DNA of 64,000 bases, from assembly GCA_029834535.1 (NCBI GenBank), contig JAQMWT010000237.1, positions 1 to 64,000 of the forward strand, written 5' to 3'. The translations under genes and the position numbers were made by a program. Every line of letters begins with the position of its first letter. Position 1 is the stretch's first letter. Below, piece after piece: positions 2,314-48,286 of this stretch. This DNA is from Chrysophaeum taylorii (Eukaryota; Sar; Pelagophyceae; Pelagomonadales; Pelagomonadaceae). The notes below the pieces were generated by a model. The model was given only the letters and a program-made list of their open reading frames with translations. It did not search any database and was not told the DNA's origin.

Positions 2314-2334
2314 GAGAACAGCAATTTCAACTTG
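2314..2334 (-). repeat. distal 21 bp of the B1 3' LTR
   Basis: Read on the minus strand this is AGTTGAAATTGCTGTTCTCTA, the terminal part of a copia-B LTR. The rest of the same LTR lies at 14776-14955. The two pieces are separated by copia-A1, whose target duplication CAACT is 2330-2334 and 14776-14780. Confidence 0.7.
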
Positions 2335-2646
2335 CAGAGAAATCTGCTGCCTCTTACCCTTATCCGTCCGTTGAGAACGTGATCTCTTCCTTACCCTTCT
2401 TCTTCCTTTCTACACAATCAAATAGTCCTCTGATTTGTGCCTACGCTCATCATCATGGTCTAGCGCGTCCCGAGGTATGTAGCACTATACACTTTACCTT
2501 TCTCGTGTAGTTCTAGATGCCGCCTGTCGTGTTCTGAGGATATAGGGAACATACCTTTTCATTCCCCGAATTAAATACTTCCAGACGTTCATGATGAGAC
2601 GGGATGGTTTCCCAGGTGACTTACCACTGCTTGCTAATGCTCTGCA
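2335..2646 (+). repeat. 5' LTR of copia-A1
   Basis: This is near-identical to 14463-14775 and to 61702-62013 (minus). It has TGCAGAG/CTCTGCA inverted ends. It is the expected location of the promoter and polyadenylation signal, although I cannot place either with confidence. Confidence 0.92.
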
Positions 2647-4646: not shown

Positions 4647-5023
4647 TAACCCTGCGATCGCTAACCGTTGGTTGCGATGGAGGACGGCGCCTAACACGCT
4701 TGCTCCCTGCGGCGGCCCCGGCCGTCCCGGAGTGAGACGGTGCCTGCTCGCCTCCCGGGCTGGTCGGTTAGCACCCGGAAAGTCCGCGCTGGGATGGGGT
4801 TTGCTCGGTTGGGCAGAACGCGACGGACAGGTCGATTGTTCGTGGACCAACACGTCCGCGGCCTGCGACGCTTTTGCACGACTTCGCACAAGACCGCGCG
4901 CAGTGGCGGTCCGTCATCAACGAGTCCTCGTCCCTCGCCTCAGCCCGTGATTCCGGATCGGCTCCTGCCTGTCCGGCCTGGCTCCCATGCTCGGGAGAGG
5001 TCTGAAGTTAGTTAGTTAGTTAG
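4647..5023 (+). mobile_element. SINE-S copy 1 (377 bp)
   Basis: A short retroposon with a (GTTA)n 3' tail, flanked by the 8-bp duplication AACAAACC (4639-4646 and 5024-5031). It starts with a ctgcgatcgctaacc block and carries gttgcgatggaggacggcgcc, a GC-rich middle, and the conserved 3' end ctcccatgctcgggagaggtctgaag followed by the tail. Small frames within it (for example 4672-4950) are incidental. It is nearly the same as copy 2 (28835-29234). Confidence 0.85.
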
Positions 5024-5031
5024 AACAAACC

Positions 5032-6326
5032 ACACCTTAAACACCCTGCGAGAACAGTGTAGTGAACTTACAAAGCATGTGACAGATAATGATACCACGG
5101 CTCAGCTACAACAGAATATCAACAAGTTATTTGAGACTCTATTACAATCAGCTGACATTCTGTCAACGACATCTACTGAGGACAACAGTAGTTTACTTCG
5201 TCTAAACGAACAGCTCATGTTTGCAGAAGACATCACTTATGATGTAGATGTTCATCTATCCTCGACCGAAAAGTCGTTAAACTACGTGGAGCCACAACAC
5301 CATACTGTTGTTACTGCTCCCACCCCAAAGGCAACTCCTCCCACTACAAACACACAGGGTAATCCTTCCAATACTGTGCCTAACCTCTTTACCGCTTCCG
5401 CCATCTCGGCTTTACCACCAGCATTATTATCCTCGCTATCTTCACAGGTCCAATCTGCCCTCAACACACCATCACAAGCCGAAACCACAAGGGATGCCGA
5501 TCATACTTCGCTATCGTCATTTGATAAAAAGCACGGCATGGCTGATGAGGCTGACGAACCATCACCACCTGTTCAACCGATTATTATTCCAGCGAATCTG
5601 TTATGGCTGAAGAACTTCTTCACAGCCAGCCTCTCCACTACTTGCCCACATTCGGAAAACGCCTTCCTCGCCAACTACATGAAGGTAAACAGTGTCTATC
5701 CACATTGCTCTTTTCTATATTTTGACTCTTGTGCTACCATCTCATTGATGTCCACTTACGATTTTGCAATACCCAATCATATAATTCCATTGGATTCCAA
5801 ATACGCGCCGATTGTTATTCAGACGGCTACAGGACAACAACGGGCATCACACATGATGTTAACACGTAACATTGTTGTTCCCCTACCAGATCATCCACGA
5901 GTTGGCTATGTTAAGATCGACTTCGCTTTATGTCTTCGGCCAGTGCATGACCGACATCTCGCTATCCTGAGCACGCTCGAGTGGAACCGGACGAACCTGA
6001 CCACTGTGTTCAATGATCGAGCTGAGCCGAAGCTCAGCGCTGTCACGAGCCGCATAGACAAAGATGTACGTATACCCATACACTATGTAGCAGCTAATTT
6101 ACCTACTCTCCCTTGTCTCACTTACAACATCGCGCGCGACAAGCGGCTCGAACTTCGTTCTCTCGCATTTCCCCTCAAGCGATACCATGAAAACAGGGAT
6201 CTACTGGCATACTACAACTACCTACTCCAAAGAGTTTTACCAGATCGCCCGTGGATTCGCCCTTTGGTTCTCAATCTTCGGAAACAGAACAATTTTGTTC
6301 AGCAAAATACGCAGCCATTAACTTGA
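5032..6326 (+). pseudogene. copia-A1 gag C-terminus and aspartic protease
   Basis: Continues the Gag frame after the SINE; removing SINE plus one duplication would keep the phase. The first ATG in this part is 5079. Residues up to about 5560 are a Ser/Thr/Gln-rich linker. The retropepsin-like domain follows: hydrophobic strand then F-D-S-C-A-T at 5721-5738, a T-A-T-G-Q flap-like segment near 5825, R-N-I-V-V-P, the V-G-Y-V-K-I-D-F-A strand, and an L-S-T-L-E-W segment near 5965. The catalytic triad is D-S-C, not D-S/T-G. copia-C has D-T-C at the same place. The TGA at 6324-6326 is in phase with the methyltransferase frame that follows, so a gag-pro-DNMT fusion is likely ancestral. Confidence 0.75.
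5264..5284 (+). repeat. 21-nt repeat, copy 1 (codes STEKSLNY)
   Basis: First of five copies fitting GACCGNAANGTCNNTAAACT plus A. In the gag frame it encodes T-E-K-S-L-N-Y, in a linker between the capsid region and the protease. It is a candidate polyprotein cleavage site. Confidence 0.55.
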
Positions 6327-7500
6327 CTACTCTCACGCCCAGTGTATCTCTCACAAGAGTCCAATCTCCGCAAACCCTCTGTCATGTTACTTTGTTCTGG
6401 TTTGTCAACTCCGGCGTTCCTGTCTCAAGCCACTAATGACTTAGGCTTAAATATCAATGTAAAAGTTGTTGTTGAGTCTGATGATACGCTTGTTCGTATG
6501 TTACGCCACCGTTTTCCTACTGTATTATTATTTGAATCTCTCCCCGCCTTTATTAACCATCTTCACCTAATCTCACCAGAGGAAAGGCACACATTCTATT
6601 GCGATATAATTGAGATCACTCCTCCCTGCACAAACAGGATTTTACTAAAACAGCATAAGACAGAAGACTTACACAGCCTGCTGGACGATTCTCTTTCCGA
6701 CAGCATGTTGTCTGTCATCAAGCTACTCCAGCCCTTGGTACTACTGGCTGAGATGACGCCTCCGCATAAGTACTGTCATCAAGACCACATCACAGTGGCC
6801 AATCTTATCCATACTACACTTGATTACTGTGTCGATGTTGTTGATAGGTTCCCGACCTACCTCTGTGGCGACTACCAATCTAGAGAAAGATGGATATGCA
6901 TCGCACGCAGATATTCTACTGGACCAATTAAACTATTGTCGTGGCCCATCCTCCATCCACGCCCCTTCCTAAAGATCGTGGATGATCTACAAGCTATTCC
7001 CAAGCGCCTTTGGCTACCTAACCACGTATCCAAAGACTGGATCCGGGTGTTCCCCGATCCTCCATATATCCCCGTTCCTAAAACGTTTGCACCTTACTCT
7101 CGCACAGGTTCTGCTCAGCTTACTATGGCTGACCTTGAATCCCTCAATATGTTACTGCTTCGCCTTCACTCACAACAGGCTCACGAGCAACGTACTCACT
7201 CTGTTCAATCCGAGTGTACTTATCATCAGTTGTGCTTTCATCCTATACACGTCAAGGTTTTTACAATCCTCTATAACTTGTTTGCCAGCTTACACACTAA
7301 CTCACCCACTCCTGTGTCCTATTACATAACCGTTTTCGAAACTAACCAACCGTCACACAGGTTACTACTTACAACCTCATCAACATCACACAACTCCTAC
7401 TTCTTAACTGGTGGCCACCATTCCGACGGCAACCTCACCATAGAGAACGCCACCACCAAACATCAAGCTTCCGACATCCCCGCGACCGGGACAGGTCCAT
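6327..7500 (+). pseudogene. C5-cytosine DNA methyltransferase-like domain of copia-A1
   Basis: The open frame is 6342-7535. Motifs appear in the canonical C5-MTase order: motif I V-M-L-L-C-S-G-L-S-T-P-A-F (residues 14-26 of the frame, SAM binding); motif II acidic residue in V-V-V-E-S-D-D (E45); motif IV D-I-I-E-I-T-P-P-C-T-N with catalytic Cys 96; motif VI-like L-L-A-E-M-T-P-P (136-141, standing for ENV); motif VIII G-D-Y-Q-S-R-E-R-W (QxRxR, 179-183). A motif IX-like stretch, A-Q-L-T-M-A-D-L-E-S-L, lies further on. The second Gly of motif I is Ser. It sits between protease and GAG-pre, and 48717-49760 of copia-C has the same motifs at the same place. A frameshift near 7500 separates it from pol. 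The fold assignment rests on motifs alone. Confidence 0.72.
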
Positions 7501-8340
7501 ATATTTGGAGCCGTTTATGGGTTACTTGTGGATAGTCCAAGCCCTTCCCCAAGTTGGCTCCGCTGCCACCTATGGCACCGCCATACAAAAGCTCTTGTCC
7601 AGATGCTCTCTTGTGATGCCTGGCTGCCTTACCTACAAGGCCACCGACAACTCTTTCGACTACAAGGATTCTCATTTTGCTCTGGAAGATCACCACTTAT
7701 CTCATAGTCGCTATATAGGGTACCTTCGTGGAAGTGACCGCAAACTCGGCTCTAAAATCCACTCCATGCTTGCTCCATTGCCAACCGTCCGAGGGTATGC
7801 CAATATTATTTTACTCGACCCTCGCAACGGGAAATTACGCTACCCCACTCGACCGGAGTTGATTCGTGCTAACAACCACACCAAACAACAGGAATCTTTC
7901 CTCTTGTCTCTACGCCATGACCTTTGCTGTGACATGCTCAGCAATGCTCTGCCTGCCGGTACGTACAGCACTCTGTACAAGCACCTTTCGCTCCTCGTTG
8001 CCGATATTAAATCCCTTATGTTGGACCCTACCTTCCAACATACTGCTGCCGTGACGAAGAAATCCTATGTATCCAATTTCATGACCGTTGATCAAGCTTC
8101 CACCACGTGCAGCACAGATACCTTGTCTTTGGCACAAGCTTTTATGATGTCTATTTCCAGCAACTGCTTGACCGAAATGTCGTTAAACTATATATCTTCG
8201 TCCTACGAAGATACTCTCGCTACTCGTGATGATGAGGATGCACCTCCAAGTGACCCTGCTGCGCACCAGGATGACGACGCACCGCCTTCCCCTGCCTTAG
8301 ACACCGAACTCAAGTTCGATGTTCGGCGCAAACGGCACAT
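7501..8340 (+). pseudogene. copia-A1 GAG-pre-integrase region
   Basis: The frame 7505-8590 begins with a segment aligning to copia-C 48286-47779: E-P-F-M-G-Y-L-W versus E-P-V-T-G-F-L-W, H-L-S-H-S-R-Y-I-G versus H-L-S-Q-S-R-Y-L-G, S-D-R-K-L-G-S-K-I-H-S, and R-G-Y-A-N-I. This is the domain before the integrase zinc finger in copia pol. After about 8200 the frame is an acidic and proline-rich linker (DDEDAPPSD, DDDAPPSP) and it loses phase around 8340-8550. The 21-nt repeat at 8170 lies in this linker. Confidence 0.65.
8170..8190 (+). repeat. 21-nt repeat, copy 2 (codes TEMSLNY)
   Basis: Encodes L-T-E-M-S-L-N-Y between the GAG-pre region and the acidic linker before integrase. copia-C has P-T-D-T-S-L at the matching spot but no nucleotide match. 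Confidence 0.55.
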
Positions 8341-8391
8341 TCCCGCTCATCCCATTCCTCGTAAGTCCTCGCACACGGATCCACCGAATAT

Positions 8392-9900
8392 CTCAATGCC
8401 AAAGAACGTGCCAATCGCTTCCACCGGGTGCATCACTGCCCCGACAACGTCGCTGCCAAGGCCCCCAACGTACTTGCTCGCCCTGGATTCTCTGCTTCTG
8501 ACATACCATATCGCGACTTATGCACCGACTGCATCGCACACAACAAGCGCCACCCGCACAAGCATTTCAATGCGACCAAGCCTTCTTTGAGCAAACTCAC
8601 AAAGCCGGCGAAGTCTGGGCGTGCGACGGCGGCTATGTGACCATCCCATCCGAATGGGAGGCTTCACACATATCATCGTCTTCAAGGAACTCATTTCGAA
8701 ATTTCTCTTGGTGTACTTTACACGCACCACCAACGCCACGGAGTTCACTCAAGCTCTGGATTTTGTGTATGACTTCTGTCGTACACAACTCAACGTGCAC
8801 ATGCGCACCCTCTACTCCGATGCCTTCAAGCCCTACTTTAGCCAGCACATTACCTCCCCGTACCGCGTCGATAAGGGCATTCAACTCATCGCCTTCCCGC
8901 CGTACATGCACCACTTTAACTTTGAAGTTGAGTCTGCCATCGGTTTCATCGCCTCCGCCTCCTCAACTCGCCTTCGTTCTCTCCTTAATGCTCACTATCG
9001 TGGCGCCAAGATCGTGGAACCAGCTATCATGTTCCCATGGGCGGTGATACACACCGTTCAAAGCTACAACCTTCTCCCGAACGCCACGCTCGAGCGCATT
9101 CATCATGCTATCATGAGTCCGCTACAGCTACCCTACAACCAACTCAACACTCCCCAACATGACATGCTCAAGATTTTCGGCGCTGAATGTTACCTTTTAT
9201 TGGAGCCCCACGAACACCACAAGTGGGAACCGTGCCGCCGCAAATATATATATCTCTGTTGCGCCAACGCGCAAAACCCGCTCGTCTCCCCGCGCGTCGA
9301 CCATCTCGCTGACGTCGTCCTCAACCCTGAAAACGAACAAATTCGTGTTTCGTCCAAGCTGCAATTCCTCTACATGTTGCAGCATCCTACTCCTGATCCT
9401 GAACTAGCTCCTCCGCCTCACGCTCCTCCCGCGCCTTTCTCGCTCACACCCCACACCGCTATCCAAGACCATGTCATTCAGAGGGGGACAAGGACTCCTC
9501 ATCCTCAGAGGGGGCACTCCCCACCTCCTTCAGCTCCTTCTTCGTCCCCTACTCCTGCCTCTTCTCGCTCTTCTAACACTCTCGCCGACAATTCTGGCTC
9601 TATGTCACCGCCGCCCTTGCTTCCTTCTTACAAAGACCTTTTTGCACAAGATGACCTTATTCTTGTCCCAGGTTCCAAACAGCCTAACATCCGCAAGGCC
9701 ACTTCTATGAAAACTATCCGAGCCCGGTTACAAGCGTCTACTATTGGTGCTTACAAAGCCGCTGGCGGCAAGCTCGCCGATTCCGCTGGGATCTTCGCCA
9801 CCACTTTCTTACGTTCAAGTCTCCCGCCCTCTCCGCCCTTCATCTCCGTGGTGGTATCCTCTGGTCTGCTATCTGCTCAGAGGGGGAACATGCGTTGTTA
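8392..9900 (+). pseudogene. copia-A1 integrase
   Basis: Spread over three phases. A His/Cys zinc-binding region (F-H-R-V-H-H ... L-C-T-D-C-I-A-H) is read near 8410-8560. The first catalytic Asp is in W-A-C-D-G-G-Y-V (near 8610-8640), the second in L-Y-S-D-A-F-K-P (near 8815), and the Glu in F-N-F-E-V-E-S-A (near 8920). The frame 8621-9901 then continues through W-A-V-I-H-T-V-Q-S-Y-N-L-L-P-N, as in copia-C, into a proline-rich linker. Frameshifts near 8545, 8660 and 9780 break it. Two CAGAGGGGG words occur in the linker (9479, 9506). Confidence 0.7.
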
Positions 9901-9934
9901 GCTCGTCTTCTTCTCCCGTTGCGCACTGACTTAC

Positions 9935-12223
9935 TTGCCCGCTACCCGCACGTCGATGGTTACTTCGCCCCACGCCAAGTGCGCATCCAGCATCCCAGCT
10001 GCAACCTTTTTAACTGCGGATGGTTCACCTGCGTGCCCTATTCCTCAGCCCCTTTTATCTGCGTTCACTGAACACGCTGCTGCCTTCGGCACTTCTTCCT
10101 TACAATATGCACTTACGTACCTGGCGCCGATCAGCTTTATTGATCACAACTCCTCCGAGTTTGGCGCTACTTCCGCATCTCTGGCTGACTTGGAGGAATA
10201 CCTTCTGGTCTCTACAGAGTTTATCACCCAGGTCTTACGTACCGACCCTACTATCCATATCCAACTGGAATCTGCCCCTACTACTCCTACTGACGCTGTT
10301 TCCGCTTATCCCGAAGTTGCGCACACTGCCTCGACCGCAACGTCGCTAAACTATAATTCACCAGCCATTGTTGGTCCTGACGAATATAAGGTCCAAGAAG
10401 CGGACGTTTCCATTGACGAATATAAACTTAAGTGCCTCCACGGTTTGTCGCCTGAAAACAGGCACGCCTACCTCAAGGCCATCGCCAAGGAACTCCACGA
10501 CATTATCCGCTTTGGCTGCTTCAAACTTTCCTTACCCGACGGTGTCTCTCGTCCTATTGACAGCAAGATGGTGCTGAAGATTAAAACAGACTCTGCAGGC
10601 AAATACGTTAAGCACAAGGCTCGCCTCGTACTACGTGGCTTCCTAGCATCTCTTGGCGCCGATTTCTTTGGTACCTTCAGCCCCATGGCCACCATGACCG
10701 CAATCCGGGTACTACTAGCTATTGCAGCATACAAGCAATTGCCTGTCTACCATGCAGACGTCCCGAACGCCTTCGTTCAGTCTGACATCGATGCCAACGT
10801 CTATGTTCAGTTACCAGACGGCATCAAGCTTATCGACCCCGATGACGCTAAGTACAAGGGCCGACGTCTACCGAAACTGCTGAAGTCACTTTATGGACTT
10901 CGGCAATCACCATCCCTTTGGAACAAAGAGATAGACGGCTTCTTCCGTAGCCTTGGCTACAAACGCCTGCATTCGGACTCTTGCCTATATGCTCGAGTAT
11001 CCGCACATGCTAAGTTCGTCGTATGCAGTCTGTCTGTAGACGACATTGTTATTGTGTCCAATGACGACCCTCTTCGTACTGAATTACAGGATGCCCTCCA
11101 CAAACGGTATGCTGTAGAGCAGTTTGAACCTGTCCATACCCTCCTAGGCATGCGTGTGTGTCGCACATCTGACGGTTCCATTTCTCTGGATGTGCAAGCC
11201 AAGCTGGATGAACTCTTCGCTGATCACCCAGTCTTGCAGCAACTGACCCCGCTTAAATATCCTATGTCATCGTCCTTCAAGTATAAAGATGGCACTCCCA
11301 GCTCTGAAACAGAGTTGTACATCAATTCGCACTTTGCCACCCTCCTTGGCAAGCTGGTGTTCATGCAAGTTGCCTGCAGACCTGACTTCTCGCAAGCCTT
11401 GGGCAGATGTTCGCGTGGTATGCATGCACCCACGTATGTTCACGTCCAAATGCTAGAGCATTTGCTTCGCTACCTCAAGAAGCCGGAAAACCGCTCACTT
11501 CGCCTCTGGTTCCATCCTAAAGGTAATGCCATTGAAGCTCACCTTCGCACTGTCTCCGCTAATCGAATTGATCTATCCACTGTGGTCGACTACCAACCGC
11601 AGGATGTATCTACTGGACAGTTTGACCCCTTAGTTGCCATGGTTGACGCTGACAATGCCCCTTCCTTAGCACAGGAAGATAGGAAATCTACCACCGGGTT
11701 TGTCTTCTATCTTTTCAACTGCCTTATTGGTTGGAAAAGCAAACTTCAACCGATTGTCTCCTGCTCAACTCACGAAGCTGAGTTGATTGCCCTCAGTATT
11801 TGTGCTGATGAAGCTGTTTGGCTACGCAAGCTGCTGTTGGAACTCTCCTTTGTCGTCAACCCCACCTTCTACGTCAACAATGCTAATGGTGAGAACACCG
11901 CTGACCCTGTTGACTTCGATGACAATGACAACCCAATTGCTGAAGATATGCGCTTCATCAGAAGCCTACCTCTCTTGTCTGACAATGCTGCCGCTGTTCA
12001 CACCTCTAATAACCCAGATGGGTCCTCTCGATCCAAGGCACTGTCGACCAGATGGTTTAAAATCCGTGAGTACATCTCGCTACAGAAAATACGAGTCCAT
12101 CATGTTCCCGGCAAGCTGAACGTGGCGGATGGTTTTACAAAGCCACTTGCTGCTGAGTTCTCCACTTTTCGTTCTCTACTCGGTATGCATCATGCCTCTG
12201 ACGACAAGCCTTTACAGGATTGA
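9935..12223 (+). CDS. copia-A1 reverse transcriptase and RNase H
   Basis: A 762-residue frame. The RT part (from about residue 190) has F-K-L-S-L-P-D, K-H-K-A-R-L-V-L-R-G-F, F-S-P-M-A-T-M-T, H-A-D-V-P-N-A-F-V-Q-S, L-Y-G-L-R-Q-S-P and the catalytic S-V-D-D-I-V-I-V (VDD at 11036-11044). RNase H follows with V-D-A-D-N-A-P-S, D-R-K-S-T-T-G-F, H-E-A-E-L-I-A-L, L-L-S-D-N-A-A-A-V-H and A-D-G-F-T-K-P-L-A. All catalytic acidic residues appear present. The upstream part (to about 10330) is linker, and a frame change near 10000 separates it from integrase. The stop at 12221-12223 is followed in phase by eight or nine codons, the fourth 21-nt repeat, and a second stop. Confidence 0.85.
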   Translation: MPATRTSMVTSPHAKCASSIPAATFLTADGSPACPIPQPLLSAFTEHAAAFGTSSLQYALTYLAPISFIDHNSSEFGATSASLADLEEYLLVSTEFITQVLRTDPTIHIQLESAPTTPTDAVSAYPEVAHTASTATSLNYNSPAIVGPDEYKVQEADVSIDEYKLKCLHGLSPENRHAYLKAIAKELHDIIRFGCFKLSLPDGVSRPIDSKMVLKIKTDSAGKYVKHKARLVLRGFLASLGADFFGTFSPMATMTAIRVLLAIAAYKQLPVYHADVPNAFVQSDIDANVYVQLPDGIKLIDPDDAKYKGRRLPKLLKSLYGLRQSPSLWNKEIDGFFRSLGYKRLHSDSCLYARVSAHAKFVVCSLSVDDIVIVSNDDPLRTELQDALHKRYAVEQFEPVHTLLGMRVCRTSDGSISLDVQAKLDELFADHPVLQQLTPLKYPMSSSFKYKDGTPSSETELYINSHFATLLGKLVFMQVACRPDFSQALGRCSRGMHAPTYVHVQMLEHLLRYLKKPENRSLRLWFHPKGNAIEAHLRTVSANRIDLSTVVDYQPQDVSTGQFDPLVAMVDADNAPSLAQEDRKSTTGFVFYLFNCLIGWKSKLQPIVSCSTHEAELIALSICADEAVWLRKLLLELSFVVNPTFYVNNANGENTADPVDFDDNDNPIAEDMRFIRSLPLLSDNAAAVHTSNNPDGSSRSKALSTRWFKIREYISLQKIRVHHVPGKLNVADGFTKPLAAEFSTFRSLLGMHHASDDKPLQD
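10333..10353 (+). repeat. 21-nt repeat, copy 3 (codes TATSLNY)
   Basis: Lies between the integrase linker and the conserved pre-RT block (V-G-P-D-E-Y-K). The aligned copia-C protein lacks this peptide (it reads H-L-T-T-T-H-D-P-S-T-V-G-S), so the site looks inserted or specific to copia-A. Confidence 0.55.
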
Positions 12224-14462: not shown

Positions 14463-14775
14463 TGCAGAGAAATCTGCTGCCTCTTACCCTTATCCGTCCG
14501 TTGAGAACGTGATCTCTTCCTTGCCCTTCTTCTTCCTTTATACACAATCAAATAGTCCTATGATCTGTGCCTACGCTCATCATCATGGTCTAGCGCGTCC
14601 CGAGGTATGTAGCACTATACACTTTACCTTTCTCGTGTAGTTCTAGATGCCGCCTGTCGTGTTCTGAGGATATAGGGAACATACCTTTTATTCCCCGAAT
14701 TAAATACTTCCAGACGTTCATGATGAGACGGGATGGTTTCCCAGGTGACTTACCACAGCTTGCTAATGCTCTGCA
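14463..14775 (+). repeat. 3' LTR of copia-A1
   Basis: 313 bp with the same TGCAGAG/CTCTGCA ends as the 5' LTR and only a few differences from it. It is followed by the target duplication CAACT (14776-14780). Confidence 0.92.
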
Positions 14776-18606: not shown

Positions 18607-19333
18607 GGATACCGAGTTGCACCTTGAGCGGATGAAAAGCTTCGGAGCGGAAAGTGGAAAAGGCATCAGATGAGATGATTTTCACACTTACATCGAATCC
18701 GACCGTAATAACATTGACCACGTAGAGGATGCCAGCCCGAGCGTCCTGCGCGTCTAGTTTCCTCAGGAATTATACCCATTTGTGTGCCGAAATAACACAC
18801 ACAAAATGCATGATGTAACGAAAGCCACCATCGCATTTGCTGATGCTCGGGTATGAGACATCCATATGGAGATATTGGCCAGGAGAATAGGCTAGTTCAT
18901 CCTGTGACCAGGAAGTGTTCTCGTGACGGAAGCTGACATGCGATTGACAGCGCTTGCATTCGCTGCAGTCTTGCAGATACCGATCATCACCTGGGCGGAG
19001 ATTCGTTACATTTGCGGCAATCGTGCGGCGAAGAATCTCTGGTTGCTGGTGATGTATGCGGTGCCAGCGAGTGACCAGAGGCACTCTTTTAGCGTGCTGA
19101 CTGGTGCCGGGCTTGTGCAAGGGGGGTAGTGCGGCGGTCGACGCGCTAGGGGGGCTGGGTCGCTTGTCAACTCGGACGTTGGCAACGGTTGCCTCGGCGA
19201 GAAGCGTCTCGAGGTTTTTCGATTTGCTTGGTTTGCGGATCGCATCATAGTGAGTATCTGCTACGGCATTGAAGAGGGAGGTGAGGTTGAGGTCCTCCTC
19301 TGCTAAGAGACGGCTGGAGATGCTTAGGAAGAA
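18607..19333 (-). pseudogene. copia-B1 integrase core
   Basis: The frame 19120-18770 has a zinc-finger-like R-W-H-R-I-H-H ... C-S-E-C-K-R-C and the first catalytic Asp in L-H-M-D-V-S-Y. After an in-frame TAA the same phase continues through S-S-D-A-F-S-T-F-R-S-E-A-F (second catalytic Asp) to L-G-I-Q, where the SINE starts. It is also in phase with the GAG-pre frame upstream through another TAA near 19334. Confidence 0.65.
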
Positions 19334-19738
19334 TTATGCAACCTGGTTGATGTCTCCGGGGCTGGGGATGCCATTGCGTATTGTTGCCCATTCGATGTGA
19401 AAGTTCACGTGGTGGTGCGATTCGTGGAGTGCGAGGACAGCGCTGTACTTTGCCTGCAGCATGTGGTGCGGGACGGCGTTGGCCAGTGCCTTAAACGCGA
19501 AGTACGGCGGGTGCTGTTGGAACAGACGTAGCAGTGCCGGGTCCGAGTGGTGTCCGAACTTCGCGATTTCATTGAGAGTCGCATAGCGGACGTGGTCGGG
19601 AGAGATCAGCAGTAGTGCGTTGGAGTAGCTCGTGTGGGTTGGGTACGAGCCAGTGACCGAGTAACACTTGGTGCTTTTCTGAAGCGTGTCTCCGATGTGG
19701 CCGACATAGTCCGCGTAAGTGGGACGTGCTTTGGACAT
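19334..19738 (-). pseudogene. copia-B1 GAG-pre-integrase region
   Basis: 134 residues starting at an ATG 62 bp after the LTR. S-Y-S-N-A-L-L-L-I-S and the following block align with G-Y-A-N-I-I-L-L-D-P of copia-A1. The absence of gag between LTR and this frame shows an internal deletion. Confidence 0.55.
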
Positions 19739-19800
19739 TATGAGTCCCGCGGGGTCATCGAGTGTGATTCGCCCTTGTGAATCGATCGCGGCAAAGCCGG

Positions 19801-32560: not shown

Positions 32561-35082
32561 TTATAGGATTTGATTCGCTGTGGAGTCTCGTCCTACACGC
32601 CCTCCGAACAATCCTCGGTGATGCATAGCGATTACACGCTTTCGCATCGACTGAGGGACCACTATAAGACGTTGAGAATCCGAATCATCGACCTTATACC
32701 ACACGTTGTTATCAGCTTCGTACGGTACGGATGACTGCTCGTCTTGATCTTTCTGCTCAGAATCCAGATTTCGTCTGATTCGCTTGCATGTGTCATCTTC
32801 AGCTTGTTCTTTCGCTATCTCATCGAGAGTGATCTCATCCTCAGCTCGATCCGCAAAAGGGAGACGTTCGACGGAATCAACTGGCTCAGACTCGTACGAG
32901 AACTGGGGCGGTTGTACATTCTGTCGCGTACTAACTGCTGCCATAGCTGCGGTGGGTCCGCTGTCCGTCGGTATAGGCATCGTCACCGAAGAGAAGGTGA
33001 AGCAAGCTGTGCCAGGTACATCGGTGGGGATTTCTTGGAAAATCAAAAAAGCTTCATTGATCCGTTCCCCGTCTTCGTCTTTCTCGATCAATTTGTCGAT
33101 AGGGTTGCGCGACAGACAATCCGGAATAAGCATGCCAGGGGAGCTTCCAGGCTTGTATCCGAGCTCCCGGTCGAACGCAGCAAGCCGCATAGCCCATCGT
33201 GCTAACTGTCCAGACGTATGATTCAAATCCCGCAGAAATGTTAAATTACGATGATCCGTCTCTAACTTCGTCTGATGACCTTCGATATAAAATCGGAAAT
33301 TTTCGAGAGCAGAGAGTACTGCGAGGAGTTCCAAGCGCCGAGGATCGTACTTCCTCATCGACTTAGGCACGGTTCGACTCCAGTACTCAATAACTCTCTC
33401 TTCGATTCTTTCTCTTCCATCGTCGTCAACGACTGGTACTTTTTGAAATAGGTAAGCACCAAACCCATGCGCGGAAGCATCAGTTCGAATGTAAAAAGGC
33501 AACGAGTAATCAGGATGGTAGACGCCCTTCGACGTGACAATAGCCTCGATGATGGCATCCCAAGCTTCCTGACACTCTTTCGTCCACTTGAATTTCACGT
33601 CCGGCAACGTCAGTTGTCTTAATGGCTCTGCAACTTTCGCAAAATTCCTTACATAACGCCGGCAAAAGCTCCCCATTCCAAGGAAAGATCGCACTTGCTT
33701 CTTAGGGTCAGCATCCGACAAAGTGCCAGGAATTGGCATGTGTCTGATGGCTTCTAAAGATTTTGGTGATGGAAGAAGTCCGTTCGGGGTAGATAAATGA
33801 CCCAAAAACTCAATGACTTCTTGCATAAAATGAATCTTCTTGATCTTGGCGCTGTACCCCTTCAAGGCGAGATGGGGAATAACTTGCACAAGGCACTGCA
33901 AGTGAGTCTTTGTATCTGCGTGACCGGCGAGAATATCGTCGATGTATGCCACGAGATCACGATATAGCCATTGCGACAAGTCGGTGTTCAACTGCTTGCA
34001 AAACAAACTTCCGGCTGGTTTGACTCCCAAAGGTAGGCGCATGTAGCTGTACGCTCCCAGAGGACTAGTGAAGGTGACCACATCTTGTGCATCTAGCGAC
34101 AATCGTAAATTGTGATAGCCCCAACGAATATCCAAACTGGAACGACAAAACTTGTCGATGAGAAACATCGGCGCGTCAGCCATGCTCACACTCGGCCAGC
34201 TATCATCCTTGAGCAATGCATTGAGGCGCCGTATGTCGACAGCTGCTCTGTAGGCATTGGAAGTGCCAGGCTCAGCACTTTTCTTAGGCAACATCAAAAT
34301 AGAGAACCCCCATGGAGAATTCGCGGGACGAATAACTCCGTCTCGGGCCCACGCTTCAATCTGCATCCGCAAACATTCCGTCTTTTCTTTCGACAACCGA
34401 TATGGCGAGAGTTTGACGGGAGTCGGGTTCTCTTCTTTGAACCGGAGCGTCACTTCAGGTGAATCAACAGGTCTCATCACATCATCGAAAAATGCCCACG
34501 AATACGAGATTAAATGCTTCATCATCAGCTTCTCGTCATCATCTAAAGCAGGATGCTCTGTAATACCCAATTCAGTCATCACCTCTTCGACCTGCGCGAC
34601 GGCCGGAGGGATGACCTGCATGCTCTCCTGACACGCTAGATGAGGAGGCATCACCGGTAAAGGTTGACCATGTTCGTCGTGAGGCGCGTCCGCCCACGGA
34701 ACGTCGTACTTATTGAAATACGCTGGTCGCTCTTTCGCGGTGCCTTCTTCTTCAGCAGTTGCGGAGGGCTGGTTGTCGACTTGGTTGCTCTGCATAACAG
34801 CAGTGGCGACGGTGCCCCCTGCAAAAGAGGAAGCCGTCCCAGGCGACGTAACTGAAGGTGGTGGCGGGGTGGTGGTGGCAGCAGCTGATGGTGCAGGACT
34901 CGCAGGAGAATAGAGTTCATCGGGCGCAATCCACGACACACTTCGAGTGGCAGGGTCGAGCGTTGGAATGCGCGACTCTACAGCAAAAGGTGAAAACCGT
35001 AGAATATGGTGATCAGGTTGGGCTAGCGTAGTCGTCGCAATATTCCGCAACTTACCCAAATTTCGAAGTGAAGGGTCAAACG
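32561..35082 (-). CDS. gypsy-1 reverse transcriptase and RNase H
   Basis: Part of the frame 35329-32561, after the DNMT end. A Pro-rich linker leads to K-Y-D-V-P-W-A-D-A-P, then RT: D-G-V-I-R-P-A-N-S-P-W-G-F, Y-R-A-A-V-D-I-R-R-L-N, the catalytic Y-I-D-D-I-L-A-G, and F-L-G-M-G-S-F-C-R-R-Y. RNase H has R-T-D-A-S-A-H-G-F-G-A-Y, R-R-L-E-L-L-A-V, L-E-T-D-H-R-N-L-T-F-L and I-P-D-C-L-S-R-N-P-I-D. Catalytic residues look intact. Strong match to gypsy-2. Confidence 0.9.
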
Positions 35083-35941
35083 AATTGTGCACTGCTAGCG
35101 CAATCCGCGTCATAGTCGCGGGTGGCACCATACTGCCAATCATCTTCATAGCTGCTGTCTCTGAAACTGTCTCTTCCCATTGCCACGTAGCAGGAACGGT
35201 CATAATTTCCTGGTGCATCTGCAACGTGAGTGGATGGGTGTTCGAGAAATGAGGTCCTAGGTGGAGCTTATTGCGCGTCACTGTGAAGGCAGGGCCGATA
35301 GCCGGGCGCGTAGATGAGAAACTGTTCACTATAATGAGCGGGTGACCACCAGTAAATCCCTACGCTGGCCCAAAACGGTCCCCTAAATTTGATGGTACAC
35401 GCGATAATAGCGGCAGGTTCAAGCGAACATTGCACGCACGTAGGCGTGTGCGCGAGCACAGCAACTCTGGTGTGATACTATAGAAATCGACAATACGCGG
35501 CACATAAAATTGGTGATGCACAAAAGGGATCACTGATGGTTCCTGCTCGAGTGTCCATCGTCCAATCAAATAAGGTGCGTTGCGGAAGTGACGCAGGACC
35601 CAAGAAGTAATAGTAGCACCCTTGCGTGCGTCCCTGTAGTGCAAATTGGCAGTCGATCCATAGATACACGGCGGACTGGCGTGGAAATAAGAATGCTTCC
35701 AACAATCTGAATGTAAATACGACAACACCAAGTCGTATGTACGACGATGAGATTTCCCCAACTCATGCAAAACATAGGGAATCTTCGGGAAATTGAGCTC
35801 AAAGGTGGCTCGGGCTTGAGGACAAGCATCCAAAGCCAGGACAATGCGAAATGAACTGCCATATAGCTCACTGCATCGCCGGATACCCAACGTTGATCCT
35901 CCAGCGCCAGCAAAGTAGACGACGACAAAGGTGTAGGTGAT
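35083..35941 (-). pseudogene. C5-cytosine DNA methyltransferase domain of gypsy-1
   Basis: Domain of about 286 residues inside the gag-pol frame. Motif I is V-V-V-Y-F-A-G-A-G-G-S-T-L-G-I, close to the classic F-x-G-x-G. Motif II is V-L-A-L-D-A-C-P-Q-A-R-A-T-F-E-L-N-F-P. Motif IV is H-A-S-P-P-C with the catalytic Cys codon at 35666-35668. A motif VI-like L-E-Q-E-P-S-V and a VIII-like S-R-T-R-L-R-A follow. After an in-frame TAG near 35357 the same phase gives a IX-like H-P-L-T-L-Q-M-H-Q-E-I and motif X K-M-I-G-S-M-V-P-P (for IGNAVPP). Its motifs differ from the copia-A/C version, suggesting a separate capture. gypsy-2 lacks it. Confidence 0.85.
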
Positions 35942-37783
35942 GGGTATCCAAACCAAGGAGGCGTGCTTAGATAGCAGCTCCTTAGCGGTCGCCTCCATCT
36001 CCATTTCTGGTGTTTTTTTCACTTCTTCATCTGGAGGTGGCTGAGGAGGAGGTCTGTCACTCAAGACATCCTCCTCGACTTCATAGTCGTCAACAGCAGC
36101 CGTAAGAGTGGCACGACACACGAGATCAGTGGCTTCTAGTTGCATGTTGACACATCCTTCATGCGGCATGATCTCGCCTTCGACTACCGGGACTTCGGGG
36201 TCGATACCAATGGGTTCGTCACCAATGTGCTCCACAGCCACATGAACTTCGTTGGGCTCGTCAGCGCAATACGATGAATAGGAACCAGGTACAAGGCGGA
36301 GATCTTGGAGGAGTGACCGATGAGGTCGGAATACGTGACCCTTTTCCAGCGGCACATCGCACTCCATCTCCAAGAAGTACGGTTGGCTTGGAAGAAGAAA
36401 TCGAGTACTCGTCACGTACGCGAAATGAGGAATGATATCTTCCTCGTCTGCCGGGCGTTTAAGTTGGTCTTCCGCTTTTTCAGCAGCCTGATCACCGGGA
36501 AGAACGTGATGGTGACTCGCTCTGATACGAATAGAGCGCAATAGACTGTCATAACTCCACGGTTTACCAACTGGCGTCCAGGTTTGGATATTTCCGTATT
36601 GCACAGCAAGCTTAGCTGTCGGGAACATCTGCATTACCTGCGGAGTCGCATCGAATGCATCATTGTAAAGGACAATTCCATGCTGGTCTTGTGGCGAGGC
36701 GGAAGTCCGATTCTTGAGAACTCCAATGGTCACTTCAGAACGCCGATAAATAGCTCGCTCTGTCGCATAATCCAAAATCGGACCCAAGAGTCATAATTCT
36801 CGTGCTCCTAATCGTAATTGCCCATTCGTTTGACCAACGAAGAACATGAGCAGCATGGATGTCGTTGGCACCAAGGAGATCCGGAGAATGACCCATTCTC
36901 GAATAGCAGCTCCCGAACCTCCTGACCCATTTATAGTACGAATCGTAGGGAGTAGCTGACGATAGATGATTTTGCCGTCACGATCAAGTTTGGGATACAA
37001 GCGGTGATCGATGTAGGGGGAATCAGCCATGCCATCCAAACCGGCAGCGATGATGGAATATTTCGAACCATCTAACGAAGAGACAGCCACAGGCACATAC
37101 GTCAAAGAGGCGGATCTCGTGCCATCGTACCTCACGGCTTTATTTTCACGATGGTCGGTATCCTGAGTGGTATTCAACGCAGTCTGAGGGCAGAAACTCT
37201 CGAAATCCGGAGAGATGGAAGGGTGAGCGGCATAACGCTCGGCGCAGTCGTCCCTCGGTGGCACTATATCCATAGCGATCAAGGTATCTTGTCCCACACG
37301 AACAATCGTATACCCCAATTCGTCACGATTATCTTCGTCTTCCGAGGGACCTCTAGATGCAACTCCAGTCACTTCGGTACTTTGCTCCTGCTCCTCCACC
37401 CATGCATCTTCAGTGATGACCAAAAAGGAAGGAGGTTCCATGGAGTCTCCAGGGGAATAGCCTTCTGCTGAGAAGCCATCATCATCGCCCCCAACATCGT
37501 CGTCGTCATACACGTTGCCCTCTATGAGCTCAGAATACTGCACAGTGCAGTAGTCCGCTCGCTTCGTGTCATCCTGATCTTCGCCGAGCACTTCAAGCCA
37601 CTGAGCGGCGACACCATCATTGCGCTGGCTAGGGTTCGCTCTCTGAGACTGTTGCCCTCTACCCGGTGGAGCCGTCTGCTGTGCCTGACGAATCAAGTTC
37701 ATCGTGTTGAGAGCCGTAGTCAGATCCTCCAGGCGCACCGAGGTCTGAGCGGTCCGCTGCACTGCGGGCTGCCTTCGGACCAC
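35942..37783 (-). pseudogene. gypsy-1 protease-like region and linker
   Basis: The frame 37783-36791 is Gln-rich and acidic, then enters a retropepsin-like segment: Y-S-I-I-A-A-G-L-D-G-M-A-D-S-P-Y-I-D, where D-G-M-A stands in place of D-(S/T)-G-A. L-P-T-I-R-T-I-N-G-S-G-G and hydrophobic strands follow. After an in-frame TGA the phase continues as L-L-G-P-I-L-D-Y-A and a long acidic linker (frame start 36787) into the DNMT. The protease call rests on position and weak pattern; it could be a decayed protease or another domain. Confidence 0.5.
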
Positions 37784-37786
37784 CTG

Positions 37787-43144: not shown

Positions 43145-44598
43145 TTAACCATCTTGTTGAGCTATGGGTTGTTGTAAGCCGAGTAACGTGCGAAATCTGC
43201 TGAAGAGCGGAGCTCCAAAGGGTTTAGTAAATCCATCGGCGATATTTTGGGTACCGGAAACATGATGTAGACGTATACGACTGTACGTAGTCACGAATAC
43301 GGAACCAGCGTGTGCTGATGGCTTTGGCCTTAGTCGCACTGTCGGAATTGTTGGAAAGATGAAAAGCAGGGGCAGAATCTCCCAGTATAGGACTGTTACG
43401 TATGAACGACATGTCCGATGGGAGGGGATTGTCGTGAGCATCATAGTCTAGTAGCAAGTCTTTCCCTGAAGATTAGCGGAGATAGAAGTGAGGATTTATA
43501 GCGAATGCCATTTCTGTTAACAATTTGCGTAACCAGACCACATCATCGGCACACATATTAAGGGCGATAAGCTCACTCTCATGCGTAGGAGTAGCTGTAA
43601 TAGGCTGCAACTTAGACTTCCAAGTAATGAGAGAACCAAACAAAAAGATAGCGTAGCCGGTTGTAGATTTGCGGTCTTGTTCATAAGAGGGTGCATTATC
43701 GGCATCTACGAACGCGACCAGCGGATCAAAATTACCTGAATTAACTTGTTCTTTAGTGTAATCCAGCATGGTGGCCATGTCAGTACGATTACCGATAAGA
43801 AGTCGAAGATGGTCCATTAGAGCGGAAGAACCAGAGTAGTACCAGAGGCGAAGATTATGCTTTTCGGGCTTGCGCAAGTAGCGGAGCGTCCCTGTTAGTA
43901 CTTGAACATGTAGAAATGCTGGATTATGCATTCCTCGAGAGCAACGACTAAGACTTTGTGATAGATCGGGGCGACAGGCCAATTGGACAAACGCGAGCTT
44001 GCCGAGTAGAGTAGAAAAGGTATGAAGGATGAACTTGTCCATATCAGAAGATGGCTCTCCAGTTTTATACGTGGCTGATGGTGACATCGGTGTGGAAGTG
44101 GGACGTGGCTGCATTAAAATGGGGTACTCTTCGAACAATGCATCAAGTTTAGCCTGACAGTCCAGTGATATAGAGCCATCAGTTGTACGCGTTATGCGCA
44201 TGCCTAGGAGAGTATGGACTTCATCGAAGGTGTCGACTGAGTATTCCTTTTTCAGGGCTTGCTGGAACTCACGACGTAGAGTTTCCGAAGTGCAAGTAAT
44301 GACGACGTCGTCTACTGAGAGCGTGCAAATTAGAAATGTAGCGTCAGCTTGGACTTTAGCGTAAATGCATGTGTCTGTTAGAATCGTGTATAGCCTAATG
44401 AATCAAAGAAGCCGTATATGGTTTGATTCCAAAGGGCAGGGCTCTGACGTAATCCATAGAGAGATTTAAGTGGCTTTGGGAGACGACGGCCTTGGTATTA
44501 GTATCTTCGGGATCGAGAAGGTAAATGCCTTGTGGCAGTTTGACATGGACATGAGAGTCGATGGGAGCTTGAACTAAAGCGTAAGGTACGTCGACATG
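43145..44598 (-). pseudogene. copia-C1 RT C-terminus and RNase H
   Basis: The catalytic S-V-D-D-V-V-I-T is read near 44300. The frame 44201-43473 continues with G-M-R-I-T-R-T-T-D-G-S-I-S-L-D, C-R-P-D-L-S-Q-S-L, then RNase H V-D-A-D-N-A-P-S-Y, D-R-K-S-T-T-G-Y and H-E-S-E-L-I-A-L. A stop near 43473 separates it from 43444-43145, with L-G-D-S-A-P-A-F-H and I-A-D-G-F-T-K-P-F. Phase changes near 44400-44590 break the link to the upstream RT part. Confidence 0.75.
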
Positions 44599-46556
44599 CT
44601 AGACGGGAAGTCGCAGATGAGCTGCTAGCGCCAGAACACAACGGATGCCAGTAAGCTGTGCCATAGGGCTGAATGTGTTGAACAAATCGGTGCCCAAGGA
44701 GGCTAAGAAGCCTCGTAGGACCAGGCGTGCTTTATGCTTAATGTACTGACCAGCAGCGTTGGTTTTTATACGTAGGACGAGGCGGGTGTCAATGGGCTTT
44801 GAGTTGACCATTGGCAGTGCTAGTTTAAAGCAGCCGAACTTAACAATATCAAAAATCTCTTTGGAGATGGCGGCGACATAAGCTTTGCGATCAGCGTCTG
44901 AGAGACCTTTGAGGCAGTTCATCTCGTATTCATCAATTTTGATATCGTTGGCTTGAATCTTGTATTCGTCCGAACCAACAGTGCTGGGGTCATGAGTCGT
45001 CGTCAGATGAGTAATTGCGTAAGAAGCGACATTATCGTGAGGATGAGCGTGATCGGGATCTTCGACGAGTTGAACAACTAGTAGAGGAGCATCACCAAGG
45101 TGAGTCTCAATGTAATGCGATTGCACGGTGATATAGTCTTCGATGGCGGAGAGGTGAGGCTCGGAGGCACCGTAAGAAGCGTCATTATGATCCAAAATGG
45201 AGTGGGGCGTGAACAAAGCATAAACATATTGAGCGGGAGGAACTTGAAAGGCGTGAGCATGTTCAGAAATTAAATGAACGAGAGCTTGAGGAAGGTGAAA
45301 GTCTGCAAGGTTGACGTCGTCGCAGAAGTGAACGTGAGGAGCATCAGGCGATGGGTGGCTATGGCTCCTATGACACATAACTGAAGAGGACTGTGAAAGC
45401 GCTTGGTGCACACGGTGATGAAGGGATGATGTAAATTCCCCCTCTGGAGGTATAGCCGTCCAGTGGATGCCATGAGCAAGATGAAGGGAGTGGAGGGCGG
45501 GGTCGCAGAAAGTGATGTACTGCTTGGAGAGGTCATACTCGAAGTCGGCAAGCGTACCACCGGCTTGTTTGTAAGCGGCAACAGTAGGCGAGGCAATACG
45601 AGTAAGAACATCCTTGAGATTGGTTTTGCGACGAGGTTGAGGGTGATGAGGACCACGGGTGAGACGTAGGACATCCTGGGAATAGAGAGACCGACAAGAT
45701 GGTAAAAGTGGCAAAGTGTTGGAGGACACTTCAGATGTAGGTGTGGTGGCGGAAGTAGCGGGTGCAGAAGCAGCTGGAGCACATGCGGGAACGGGAGAGG
45801 GAGCATGGAGATGAGAAGAAGGAGCCCCCCTCTCGTGATCAGTGTCGGTAGGCATAGCATTCCCCCTCTGCGTCGCATCATTGAGGGTGCTGTGAACAGA
45901 GAAGGGAATGTCGGGTGAAGGTGCTGGAGGTGGATGCTGTTCATAATCAGGAGGAGATTTAGACATAAGATGAGGAAAAGTCAGTTTAGAGGAAACACGG
46001 ACTTGGCCATTTTCAGGATTAAGGACAACATCGGCTAAATGATTAACATGGGGTGTTATTAAAGGGTTTATAACATTAGCACCACATAAGTAGATGTAAG
46101 GACGACATCGAGGCTCATGTTTATGAAATTCGTTAGGTTCCAAATGCAGATAACAAACAGAACCAAAAGGTTTGAGGTAGTCCTGTTGGGGAACATTACA
46201 TTGGTCTAACAAAACTTGTTGGGGGCTTAGGACTTTATTATAAATACGTTCGAAGGGAACGTTAGGGAGGAGATTATACGATTGGATGGCATGTATAACA
46301 GCCCACGGGTAGTGTGGTGCCGGATCTGTTAGGGGGTGACCTTTATAGGATACATTAAGCATATGCCGGAGTCGTGTAGACGCGGCAGTGGCTATGTGAC
46401 CAACAGCGGCTTCTACTTCATGATTAAAGACATGTAAGTAAGGGGGGAACGCGGACATATTAATACCATGTTCCACACGAAAGGGAGTTGTAACATGCTG
46501 AGATAAATAGGGTTTAAAGGAATCACAATAAATTTGTTTTAGTTGTACATGAACAT
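44599..46556 (-). pseudogene. copia-C1 integrase C-terminus, linker and RT N-terminus
   Basis: A 625-residue frame from 46476. F-N-H-E-V-E-A-A-V-G holds the integrase Glu; Y-P-W-A-V-I-H-A-I-Q-S-Y-N-L-L-P-N follows, then a Pro/Ala-rich linker with Q-R-G-N and E-R-G-A. V-G-S-D-E-Y-K and the RT start (F-K-L-A-L-P-M, K-H-K-A-R-L-V-L-R-G-F, F-S-P-M-A-Q-L-T) come next, ending at L-R-L-P-V. Two CAGAGGGGG words (45438-45446, 45862-45870 as complement) fall in the linker. Confidence 0.78.
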
Positions 46557-46569
46557 AAGTAGAACAAAA

Positions 46570-46953: not shown

Positions 46954-47388
46954 ATTACGGACAAACTCAGGGGCGTTACAAAATTCGCTGGAGTTAGTGC
47001 TACGACAAAAGTACACTAACAAAAATTTATAAATGGGACACTTAATAACAATGATATGTCGAAAGGATCCCCATTCTGAGAGAACGGGTACGTAACCACC
47101 GTCACATGCCGAGGCTTCACCAGGTTGAAAAATTTTTTCGAATGATGGTTGCTTGGTAAGGTGATGTGGATGCGGAAAGTGTTTTTTATGAATCGTACAA
47201 TCCACACCGAACTTACGGTAGGGTACGTCAGATGGGTGGTGTCCAGGACTGGCAATAACCTGAACAGCTTTTATAGCTTGAGAATCACTAGAATGGTGGA
47301 TGTTGTGAAAATTGGTAGCTCGTTGTTGCGCATCTCGAATGCGAGGGTGCCCTGCATGCTTTCTTATCGAAGGGCGCATGCTTCTCAT
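46954..47388 (-). pseudogene. copia-C1 integrase N-terminal half
   Basis: H-Q/Y-R-K-F-G-V-D-C-T-I-H and F-P-H-P-H-H zinc-binding-like residues, then A-C-D-G-G-Y-V with the first catalytic Asp, H-I-I-V-I-K and K-F-L-L-V-Y-F. It matches copia-A1 (A-C-D-G-G-Y-V, H-I-I-V-F-K, K-F-L-L-V-Y-F). Cut by SINE-S copy 4 just before the second Asp region. Confidence 0.75.
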
Positions 47389-48286
47389 GGAGCTGTCTTG
47401 GCGTTATAAGAGGGAATTTGTTTTTCTTTAGTAGGAGATGTATATCTGCGGATGAGTGTGTTAGAGAGGAAGAGATGAGCTACCGAATCGAGATGAAAGA
47501 GGGAAGGAAGTTCGTGGTTAGAAGCAAGATTATCACAACATGAGAGAGTTTTTATTGGAGATGTAGAACATTGTAATGGAACTCTGGTGTAATATTAAGG
47601 ATGTATCTGTTGGGAATATATTTGTGAAGAAAGTCGACCTATAGTTTTTGGTTAGAGAGGCGTGATCAGGGTCAAACGATGGTGATAGCGTTAATTTACG
47701 CAAGTCATAGAACAAGCTGACACAAATGTTTATAAATAGTATGATATGTTCCAGCCGGAATAGCATTAGCGATGTATGTCACAGCATAGGTCCGGGACAA
47801 AGACAAAGGAAATTGATTTGAGTTTGGTACGCTGTGAAGTTATTGGCGCGTGCCAATTCGCGAGTTGAGTAGTGTCGAATGCGATCGAGTTGTGGATCGT
47901 ACACGAGCATATTAGCAAATCCACGAATGTTAGGAGTAGGAGTGTATATAGAATGAACTTTGGCACCCATCTTCCTATCGCTTGATGTAACAAAGCCCAG
48001 GTATCTGCTTTGGGACAGATGCATGTCACTTAAAGCAAACATTTTATCGATAAATTCGAGACGATTTTCCTGAGGGTAGAAGACAAAAGAATCGTGAAAT
48101 ACAGGAGAAGTATAGGGGGCCAGTGCTTGTACTAGACGACGCGTGTCTTGATTTTCATTATTATTATGGTATGCTTGGCAAAGCCAAAGAAAGCCAGTAA
48201 CAGGTTCGAGAGAAGCAGTCTTATCGATTCCGGCATCATGTGTTAGGAAGGTATAGGTTTCGCCAAAAGCATTTATATGTGCCTGG
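47389..48286 (-). pseudogene. copia-C1 GAG-pre-integrase region
   Basis: E-P-V-T-G-F-L-W-L-C, H-L-S-Q-S-R-Y-L-G-F, S-D-R-K-M-G-A-K-V-H-S and R-G-F-A-N-M align with copia-A1. The frame ends at 47779. Remaining sequence to 47400 is in other phases, with P-T-D-T-S-L near 47600 matching the place of the 21-nt repeat copy 2 in copia-A1. The frame's apparent start at 48336 lies in the neighbouring SINE and is not native. Confidence 0.6.

Follow-up and report, generated by a model that had tools for sequence, protein, structure and literature searches.

Whether a copia retrotransposon can own a C5-cytosine methyltransferase, and what the enzyme would do for it, is the question raised by 64,000 nucleotides of the alga Chrysophaeum taylorii (contig JAQMWT010000237.1, positions 1 to 64,000, assembly GCA_029834535.1), which are called the window below. 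DNA methylation is a main weapon of hosts against transposons, and a parasite which carries the methylating enzyme itself reverses this usual logic. In an earlier sequence-only reading of the window a methyltransferase-like domain of about 350 residues had been noticed in two copia elements, copia-A1 and copia-C1, and had been taken as the property of two families.

The frames 6327-7532 (+) of copia-A1 and 48720-49778 (-) of copia-C1 indeed contain one shared domain, with 48% identity over 340 aligned columns. In both frames segments which we read as the C5-methyltransferase motifs I (LLCSG), II (VESDD), IV (PPC or SPC, then TNR), VI (EMTPP), and VIII (CGDYQxRERW) were located in the correct order, as had been claimed. 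The relationship to the Pfam family PF00145 (cut-off 22 bits) appeared by way of the nearest database relatives of the copia domain, where E values from 1e-10 to 1e-16 were reached: P0007 scored 23.0 bits, P0008 41.8, and P0011, matched in two separate stretches, 61.4, with P0006 below the cut-off at 20.2. The profile check proposed beforehand was therefore positive through P0007, P0008, and P0011 and negative for the A and C frames themselves. The predicted fold is that of a Rossmann methyltransferase, and the 50 best matches listed in each of two Foldseek searches were all C5-cytosine methyltransferases or their complexes, including DNMT2 structures and one C5-carboxymethyltransferase; for the relative P0011 fibrillarin-like methyltransferases were listed as well. 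The structure models are weak and were used for the fold class only. The fold thus came out as the sequence-only reading had expected, and the combination of a missing profile match with a different fold did not arise. Searches of PDB sequences gave unrelated matches only with P0004 (phmmer) and, with the family profile A3, a cytosine methyltransferase as best match at a nonsignificant E of 0.066. Motifs, database relatives, and predicted fold together support the assignment of the shared domain as a divergent C5-cytosine methyltransferase.

Twenty-two columns are invariant in 11 sequences ranging down to 25% identity, among them the PC cysteine, the motif VI glutamate, and the glutamine and both arginines of QxRxR. 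The residue following PC is threonine in families A and C and glutamine in eight of nine relatives and in all 18 loci read of a third copia family, E; the second position of ENV is methionine in A and C and asparagine in E. The replacement of ENV by EM pointed out earlier is real and fixed, EMTPP being found in all 30 C copies and all 21 A copies, but it is not peculiar to the two window elements. As relatives in other data sets have EMTPP too, it is the mark of a lineage, and as the standard Pfam model misses the A and C frames it is a useful handle for finding more carriers.

The domain proved to be considerably longer than first thought. In the genome copies L005, L012, and L030 of family C and L053 of family A it is a single frame of about 560 residues. 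The limits initially given (6327-7500 and 48717-49760) correspond to existing frames but are too short, the A1 domain running to about 8086. Because both window copies are broken, their C-terminal halves lie in another frame or in pieces, and what had been noticed was therefore the catalytic half with part of the recognition region. Families A and C are 51% identical in the first half and 46% in the second. At equivalent places the second half carries STRELARANN...ANAIP in C and TRPELIRANN...SNALP in A, which by eye look like motifs IX and X; a profile match was not obtained for this half in A or C itself.

Within the genome of 70.8 Mb the domain is present in high copy number, 115 copies of C being scored out of 1130 first-look candidates and 103 of A out of 1401. 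The C sample analysed for conservation consisted of the 30 best protein matches, 28 of them without a stop in the matched frame, and the A sample of the window copy and 20 fetched loci, hand-picked for spread and mostly stop-free. The ratio of nonsynonymous to synonymous polymorphism (pN/pS) was 0.085 in the first half of C (30 copies), 0.148 in its second half (28 copies), and 0.187 in the first half of A (21 copies), values close to those of the adjoining Gag-Pro end (0.106, 29 copies) and of the stretch after the domain (0.183, 22 copies). The domain is under purifying selection. PC is retained in 30/30 C and 20/21 A copies (one A copy is gapped there), QxRER in 30/30 and 20/21, and RERW in 29/30 and 20/21. 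That the motifs are among the best-conserved residues could be confirmed for the A copies, where variation is lower in the five motif blocks than elsewhere in the N-terminal half (0.0128 versus 0.0619; 245 of 20000 block shuffles were as low), but not for the 30 very similar C copies, where the difference is not clear (0.0044 versus 0.0141; 3238 of 20000).

The domain has a usual place in the element. Scored places of the reverse transcriptase domain RVT_2 (150 of 1670 candidates) were paired with 115 rows of C, 103 of the 108 of A (without secondary fragments), and 55 presumed to be E. For at least 50 of the 150, an A or C domain from these lists lies upstream in the same orientation and no more than 8 kb away, a lower bound since the lists hold the best-scoring copies only. 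The distance from domain to reverse transcriptase has a median of 4278 nucleotides in A (32 pairs) and 4274 in C (19 pairs) and ranges from 3767 to 6289; as exceptions, one pair had the domain on the wrong side of the reverse transcriptase and three pairs were split between the two strands. In one copy domain and reverse transcriptase are listed at an identical frame length of 1691 residues. No E row paired with any of the 150 places, presumably because the E reverse transcriptases fall outside these best 150. The position between protease and GAG-pre described in the sequence-only reading agrees with motifs found by eye, such as the protease-like DSCAT of A1 (5724-5738, +), but Pfam recognized neither protease nor GAG-pre and reported no domain above cut-off in the A1 Gag-Pro frame.

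Another finding was that in families A and C the Gag-Pro frame ends at an in-frame TGA, behind which the methyltransferase-Pol frame begins. Of 30 C loci 29 have the corresponding UGA, and in the remaining one (L017) the same neighbourhood is read in another frame. Of the 20 A loci which extend to the site, the window copy among them, 18 have it (17 by pattern, L068 from its printed frame). The two A loci left are damaged at the site (L056) or have other sequence there (L060); L071 ends before it. The context is mostly TGACGC in C, and TGACTA and TGAATG are found among others in A. The sequence makes the UGA a possible site of readthrough or reinitiation.

More than the two families originally named carry such a domain. 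A PF00145 search of the genome gave 124 matches. Eighteen loci read (L033-L050) form family E, to which about 37 further rows were assigned by profile range only. The E motifs read IAGGLHQEGF, FTLPCQHLS, VENVPPNP, and SKxRYLAV, with scores of 33.4 and 34.2 bits against PF00145; PCQ occurs in 18/18 and ENV in 17/18 loci (ENA in L037), figures to be read with the preference of the Pfam model, by which these loci were found, for canonical motifs. The L047 frame extends from a protease-like SLIDGGAS through the methyltransferase domain. What lies downstream of it (L077) aligns with the A1 reverse transcriptase over 312 columns at 36% identity. By profile comparison the E domain is homologous to the A/C domain over 323 columns (probability 97.9, E 4.9e-13). 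Since E keeps PCQ and ENV, the ancestral copia enzyme probably had both, and EMTPP would belong to the A/C lineage and its outside relatives. By their sequences families A, C, and E are all copia; the A and C reverse transcriptases are about 60% identical. A search for E relatives outside the genome among 5.8 billion proteins, with 7997 candidates scored, yielded none at E<=0.01.

A second kind of carrier is the Gypsy-type element G1 (32561-37786, -) with RVT_1 and RNase H, where a methyltransferase stands in front of the reverse transcriptase. Its motifs follow in the order FAGAGGSTLG, LALDA, SPPC, LEQEP, PLTLQMHQEI, and GSMVPP. Two frames matched PF00145 at profile positions 7-71 and 262-321 with E 0.01 each, both below cut-off, and G1, with RVT_1 downstream, shares 93% identity with L073 over 420 columns. 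All three Gypsy copies found elsewhere in the genome are above the cut-off (34.0 bits for L073, 24.0, and 24.6). Profile comparison of the copia and Gypsy domains gave no homology (probabilities 0.3 and 0.2). This failure is weak evidence, since host proteins which match PF00145 well fail too: A3 against the DNMT2-like L031 stayed at noise level, and E against the DNMT5-like L032 was likewise negative. In a small tree with these host rows and Escherichia coli Dcm, the copia rows group with four relatives at 91/87 (not starred) and the Gypsy rows at 100/99; deep forks are weak and long branches flagged. As the profiles do not match and the tree separates them, the copia and Gypsy domains are likely to stem from two captures, a very deep common origin still being allowed. 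Viral contigs scanned with A3 gave 32 pattern matches, none of them confirmed, and no viral source was seen there.

Of the 24 PF00145 loci read (L031-L050, L073-L076) only L031 and L032 appear to be host methyltransferases outside transposons. The labels DNMT2-like and DNMT5-like come from motifs judged by eye and, for L032 (contig C621; 2086-residue frame, PF00145 E 7.9e-18), from a RING-like stretch. The host is photosynthetic, as 84 genome matches to light-harvesting proteins indicate, for which reason Perkinsus was discarded as a candidate, and an AAF seen by eye in two transit peptides suggests a red-type complex plastid. On contigs C88 and C539 equal-scoring light-harvesting matches lie about 1.2 kb apart on the same strand, likely tandem genes.

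The best explanation as a whole, to which we assign a probability of about 0.55, is a full C5-cytosine methyltransferase, comprising catalytic half, recognition region, and the half with motifs IX and X, captured by a copia retrotransposon and used for methylation of itself. A single capture in a common ancestor of families A, C, and E is probable, the position between protease and integrase being retained since. In A and C the enzyme would form the N-terminal part of a methyltransferase-integrase-reverse transcriptase-RNase H protein, made by ribosomes that read through the UGA or begin anew there, and it could be packaged together with the reverse transcriptase. It would then methylate cytosines of the element's own new complementary DNA, the next most likely substrate being its RNA. 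The copy may thereby carry its mark from the moment of insertion, so that it resembles host DNA or escapes attack on unmodified DNA, and the marking might later limit expression of its own family. Self-methylation is here, as in the sequence-only reading, an inference.

A number of observations weigh against this self-methylating enzyme. Direct Pfam scans found no PF00145 match in the A1 and C1 frames, only one unrelated match of 12 bits, and none in the longer copies L053 and L012, and the confidence of the structure models is low (predicted local distance difference test scores of 55 and 49). Motif I, which would bind S-adenosylmethionine, has in LLCSG a single glycine of the FxGxG loop and lacks the canonical GxG, and motif VI reads EMT in A and C, so that methyltransferase activity could be lost. 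LLCSG itself is kept in 29/30 C copies and in only 17/21 A copies, and the choice of best C matches and mostly stop-free A loci biases pN/pS towards low values. A second Gypsy element (53712-60080, +), related to L074, is without the methyltransferase stretch; it looks like an internal deletion, and the domain is thus dispensable for some copies, which may get help in trans. Heavy CG methylation of the copies would raise C-to-T changes at CG, where they are little raised in C (CG 0.0268, CHG 0.0234, CHH 0.0235) and in A (0.0433, 0.0404, 0.0324), and in the first half of C the order is reversed with CG lowest (0.0091 versus 0.0192 in CHH). Changes found in a single copy, which come closer to recent mutation, tend instead toward CG, both in A (CG 16/1500 cells, CHH 33/5892, CHG 6/1831) and in C (28/6989, 70/24967, 18/4835). 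Observed over expected CpG is 0.95-1.08 in five transposon loci and 1.02 in the window, compared with 1.26-1.46 in four gene loci. Strong CG methylation that persists and leads to deamination has left no sign here; weak or transient methylation, methylation in other contexts, or little deamination is compatible with these values.

The missing GxG, the change to EMT, and the lack of a direct profile match would also suit a catalytically dead methyltransferase fold which binds nucleic acid or has a structural role within Pol. This is made unlikely by the PC cysteine, the motif VI glutamate, and the QxRxR residues, invariant in the 11 sequences and nearly constant among copies, and by family E, which keeps PCQ and mostly ENV. 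Somewhat better placed, if still doubtful, is an enzyme which acts on RNA, either the genomic RNA of the element or its tRNA primer, as DNMT2 does on tRNA. DNMT2 structures occur among the fold matches, the domain accompanies a replication complex which uses an RNA template, and RNA as a substrate was raised for the LINE type in the available part of PMC5890265. A DNMT2-specific feature was not found in the domain, the comparison with the host protein L031 gave noise, and the active retrotransposon enzymes described in the same part of that paper act on DNA.

The enzyme might also act in trans on host chromatin, by which silencing would be reshaped or the elements would restrain themselves. 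With more than 100 scored copies each of A and C, and 18 E and four Gypsy-type loci among those read, a stray enzyme is plausible, and such an action is compatible with self-methylation. The CpG ratio of the window is near 1, there is no strong CG decay, and nothing was seen that would direct the enzyme to host loci, which leaves this a decidedly unlikely account. A chance resemblance, another S-adenosylmethionine-dependent methyltransferase, or an assembly chimera is close to refuted: the absent Pfam match, the low model confidence, and the fibrillarin-like matches of P0011 could be quoted in its favour, but the domain occurs in several families, at the usual spacing to the reverse transcriptase in 50 places, with relatives that match PF00145 strongly, and the 50 Foldseek matches listed are C5-methyltransferases without exception. 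These readings overlap, and their probabilities need not add up to 1. Beyond the captured self-methylating enzyme of copia, we would lay even odds on a wider proposition, namely that LTR retrotransposons of both superfamilies independently acquired C5-methyltransferases (copia once, before the A/C/E split), that the A/C enzyme behind its UGA is a dose-controlled self-methylating replication machine, and that EMTPP is a new active-site signature shared with relatives.

The positions of the window features are collected in Table 1. Copia-A1 is a complete long terminal repeat (LTR) element of 12.4 kb (2333-14775, +) and a fairly young insertion, as follows from the near identity of its LTRs, their TG...CA ends, and the CAACT on both outer sides. 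An extra open reading frame follows its RNase H (12308-14305, +) and has a counterpart near 41364-43073 (-) by C1, with 24% identity over 482 columns (E 6e-9). For C1 a pair of LTRs was looked for and none was found; RVT_2 matched with E 4.5e-9, above cut-off, and again with E 1.1e-6 (28.9 bits, below the cut-off of 31.6), and SH3_retrovirus with E 3.2e-5, below cut-off. In L012 the integrase core reached an E of only 0.064. The remnant of family E in the window spans 19798-15897 (-), with integrase and reverse transcriptase at 19000-15897. A further copia-like element (23801-26932, +; RVT_2 E 3.6e-12) is 22-32% like A where aligned, and a methyltransferase piece was not detected in it.

Table 1. 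Features of the window; methyltransferase parts and their motifs are predictions
Feature	Positions	Strand	Remarks
A1 5' LTR	2333..2646	+	TG...CA; CAACT directly outside; 308/314 aligned positions same as 3' LTR (98%)
A1 Gag-Pro frame, end part	5016..6326	+	closed by TGA 6324-6326
A1 methyltransferase, N-terminal half	6327..7532	+	motifs I, II, IV, VI, VIII; 89% identity over 410 columns to L053
A1 motifs	LLCSG 6387-6401, VESDD 6471-6485, PPCTNR 6621-6638, EMTPP 6750-6764, CGDYQSRERW 6864-6893	+
A1 methyltransferase, C-terminal half	7478..8086	+	other frame; tblastn with genome copies; RYPTRPELIRANN 7838-7876, SNALP 7940-7954; single frame in L053
A1 GAG-pre/integrase region	8371..9898	+	SH3_retrovirus E 1.9e-5, 24.9 bits (below cut-off of 27); tblastn pieces
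A1 reverse transcriptase and RNase H	9902..12220	+	RVT_2 E 4.2e-42, core 10529-11197; RNase H by position only
A1 3' LTR	14463..14775	+	CAACT outside = 5-bp target duplication
Family E remnant, C-terminal methyltransferase region	18998..19798	-	91% identity over 267 columns to L047
G1 methyltransferase	34763..36019	-	split by one TAG; FAGAGGSTLG 35885-35914, SPPC 35666-35677, PLTLQMHQEI 35204-35233, GSMVPP 35120-35137
C1 SH3 and reverse transcriptase	43476..46569	-	two frames
C1 methyltransferase, C-terminal half and following part	47334..48324	-	frame-broken; tblastn with L012; IRHYSTRELARANN 47839-47880, ANAIPAG 47750-47770
C1 methyltransferase, N-terminal half	48720..49778	-	TGA directly before, 49779-49781
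C1 motifs	LLCSG 49695-49709, VESDD 49611-49625, SPCTNR 49455-49472, EMTPP 49329-49343, CGDYQARERW 49200-49229	-

With several copia families as carriers, their active sites conserved, capture of the domain by LTR elements looks recurrent, and a genome of 70.8 Mb in which domain-bearing elements lie beside one lacking the domain is a setting for probing the purpose of the enzyme. The closest relatives of the domain itself, P0006 (MMETSP, 392 amino acids) and P0007-P0014 (ENA, JGI, and MMETSP), share EMTPP and QxRxR and are short proteins or fragments.

Retroelements with DNMT domains have been described before. The accessible part of the 2018 paper PMC5890265 reports LINE and DIRS elements in Symbiodinium and a Gypsy element in Klebsormidium, gives the copia elements of Symbiodinium as free of any DNMT domain, and shows that the DIRS enzyme methylates CG in yeast, with inconclusive results for the other types. 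KnitGypsy-Dnmt3 of Klebsormidium nitens is, like the copia elements studied here, an LTR element whose Pol includes a C5-methyltransferase kept by purifying selection, but it belongs to Gypsy and its enzyme to the DNMT3 type by the tree of that paper; in the copia domain, by comparison, a long stretch separates motif VIII from the IX/X-like end, EMT replaces ENV in A and C, and the location is ahead of integrase and reverse transcriptase. SymbioDIRS-Dnmt3 resembles the present case in its methyltransferase in the Pol frame, its many copies, and its microalgal genome; it is a DIRS element with a tyrosine recombinase, and not copia. SymbioLINE-Dnmt is likewise a high-copy retroelement with an orphan DNMT, but a non-LTR element with the DNMT in an open reading frame upstream of that for the reverse transcriptase. 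One clause in PMC12344493 places DNMT3 members in LTR Copia and DIRS elements; taken literally this would be the same pairing of copia and DNMT, but the 2018 text it cites says Gypsy, and section 5 of PMC12344493 describes no such element. A copia carrier is not described in the parts of PMC9998398, PMC12477816, PMC12730594, and PMC5670126 that were available either, the search having covered the open-licence PMC literature, so that one may have been reported elsewhere. As copia elements, families A, C, and E fall outside the LINE, DIRS, and Gypsy classes of DNMT3 retrotransposons set out in the available text of PMC5890265. The domain is real, ordinary in its fold, and unusual in its place and sequence; the capture of a DNMT by a retroelement is of a known kind, and what is new are the copia carriers, their several families, and the occurrence in two LTR superfamilies of one genome.
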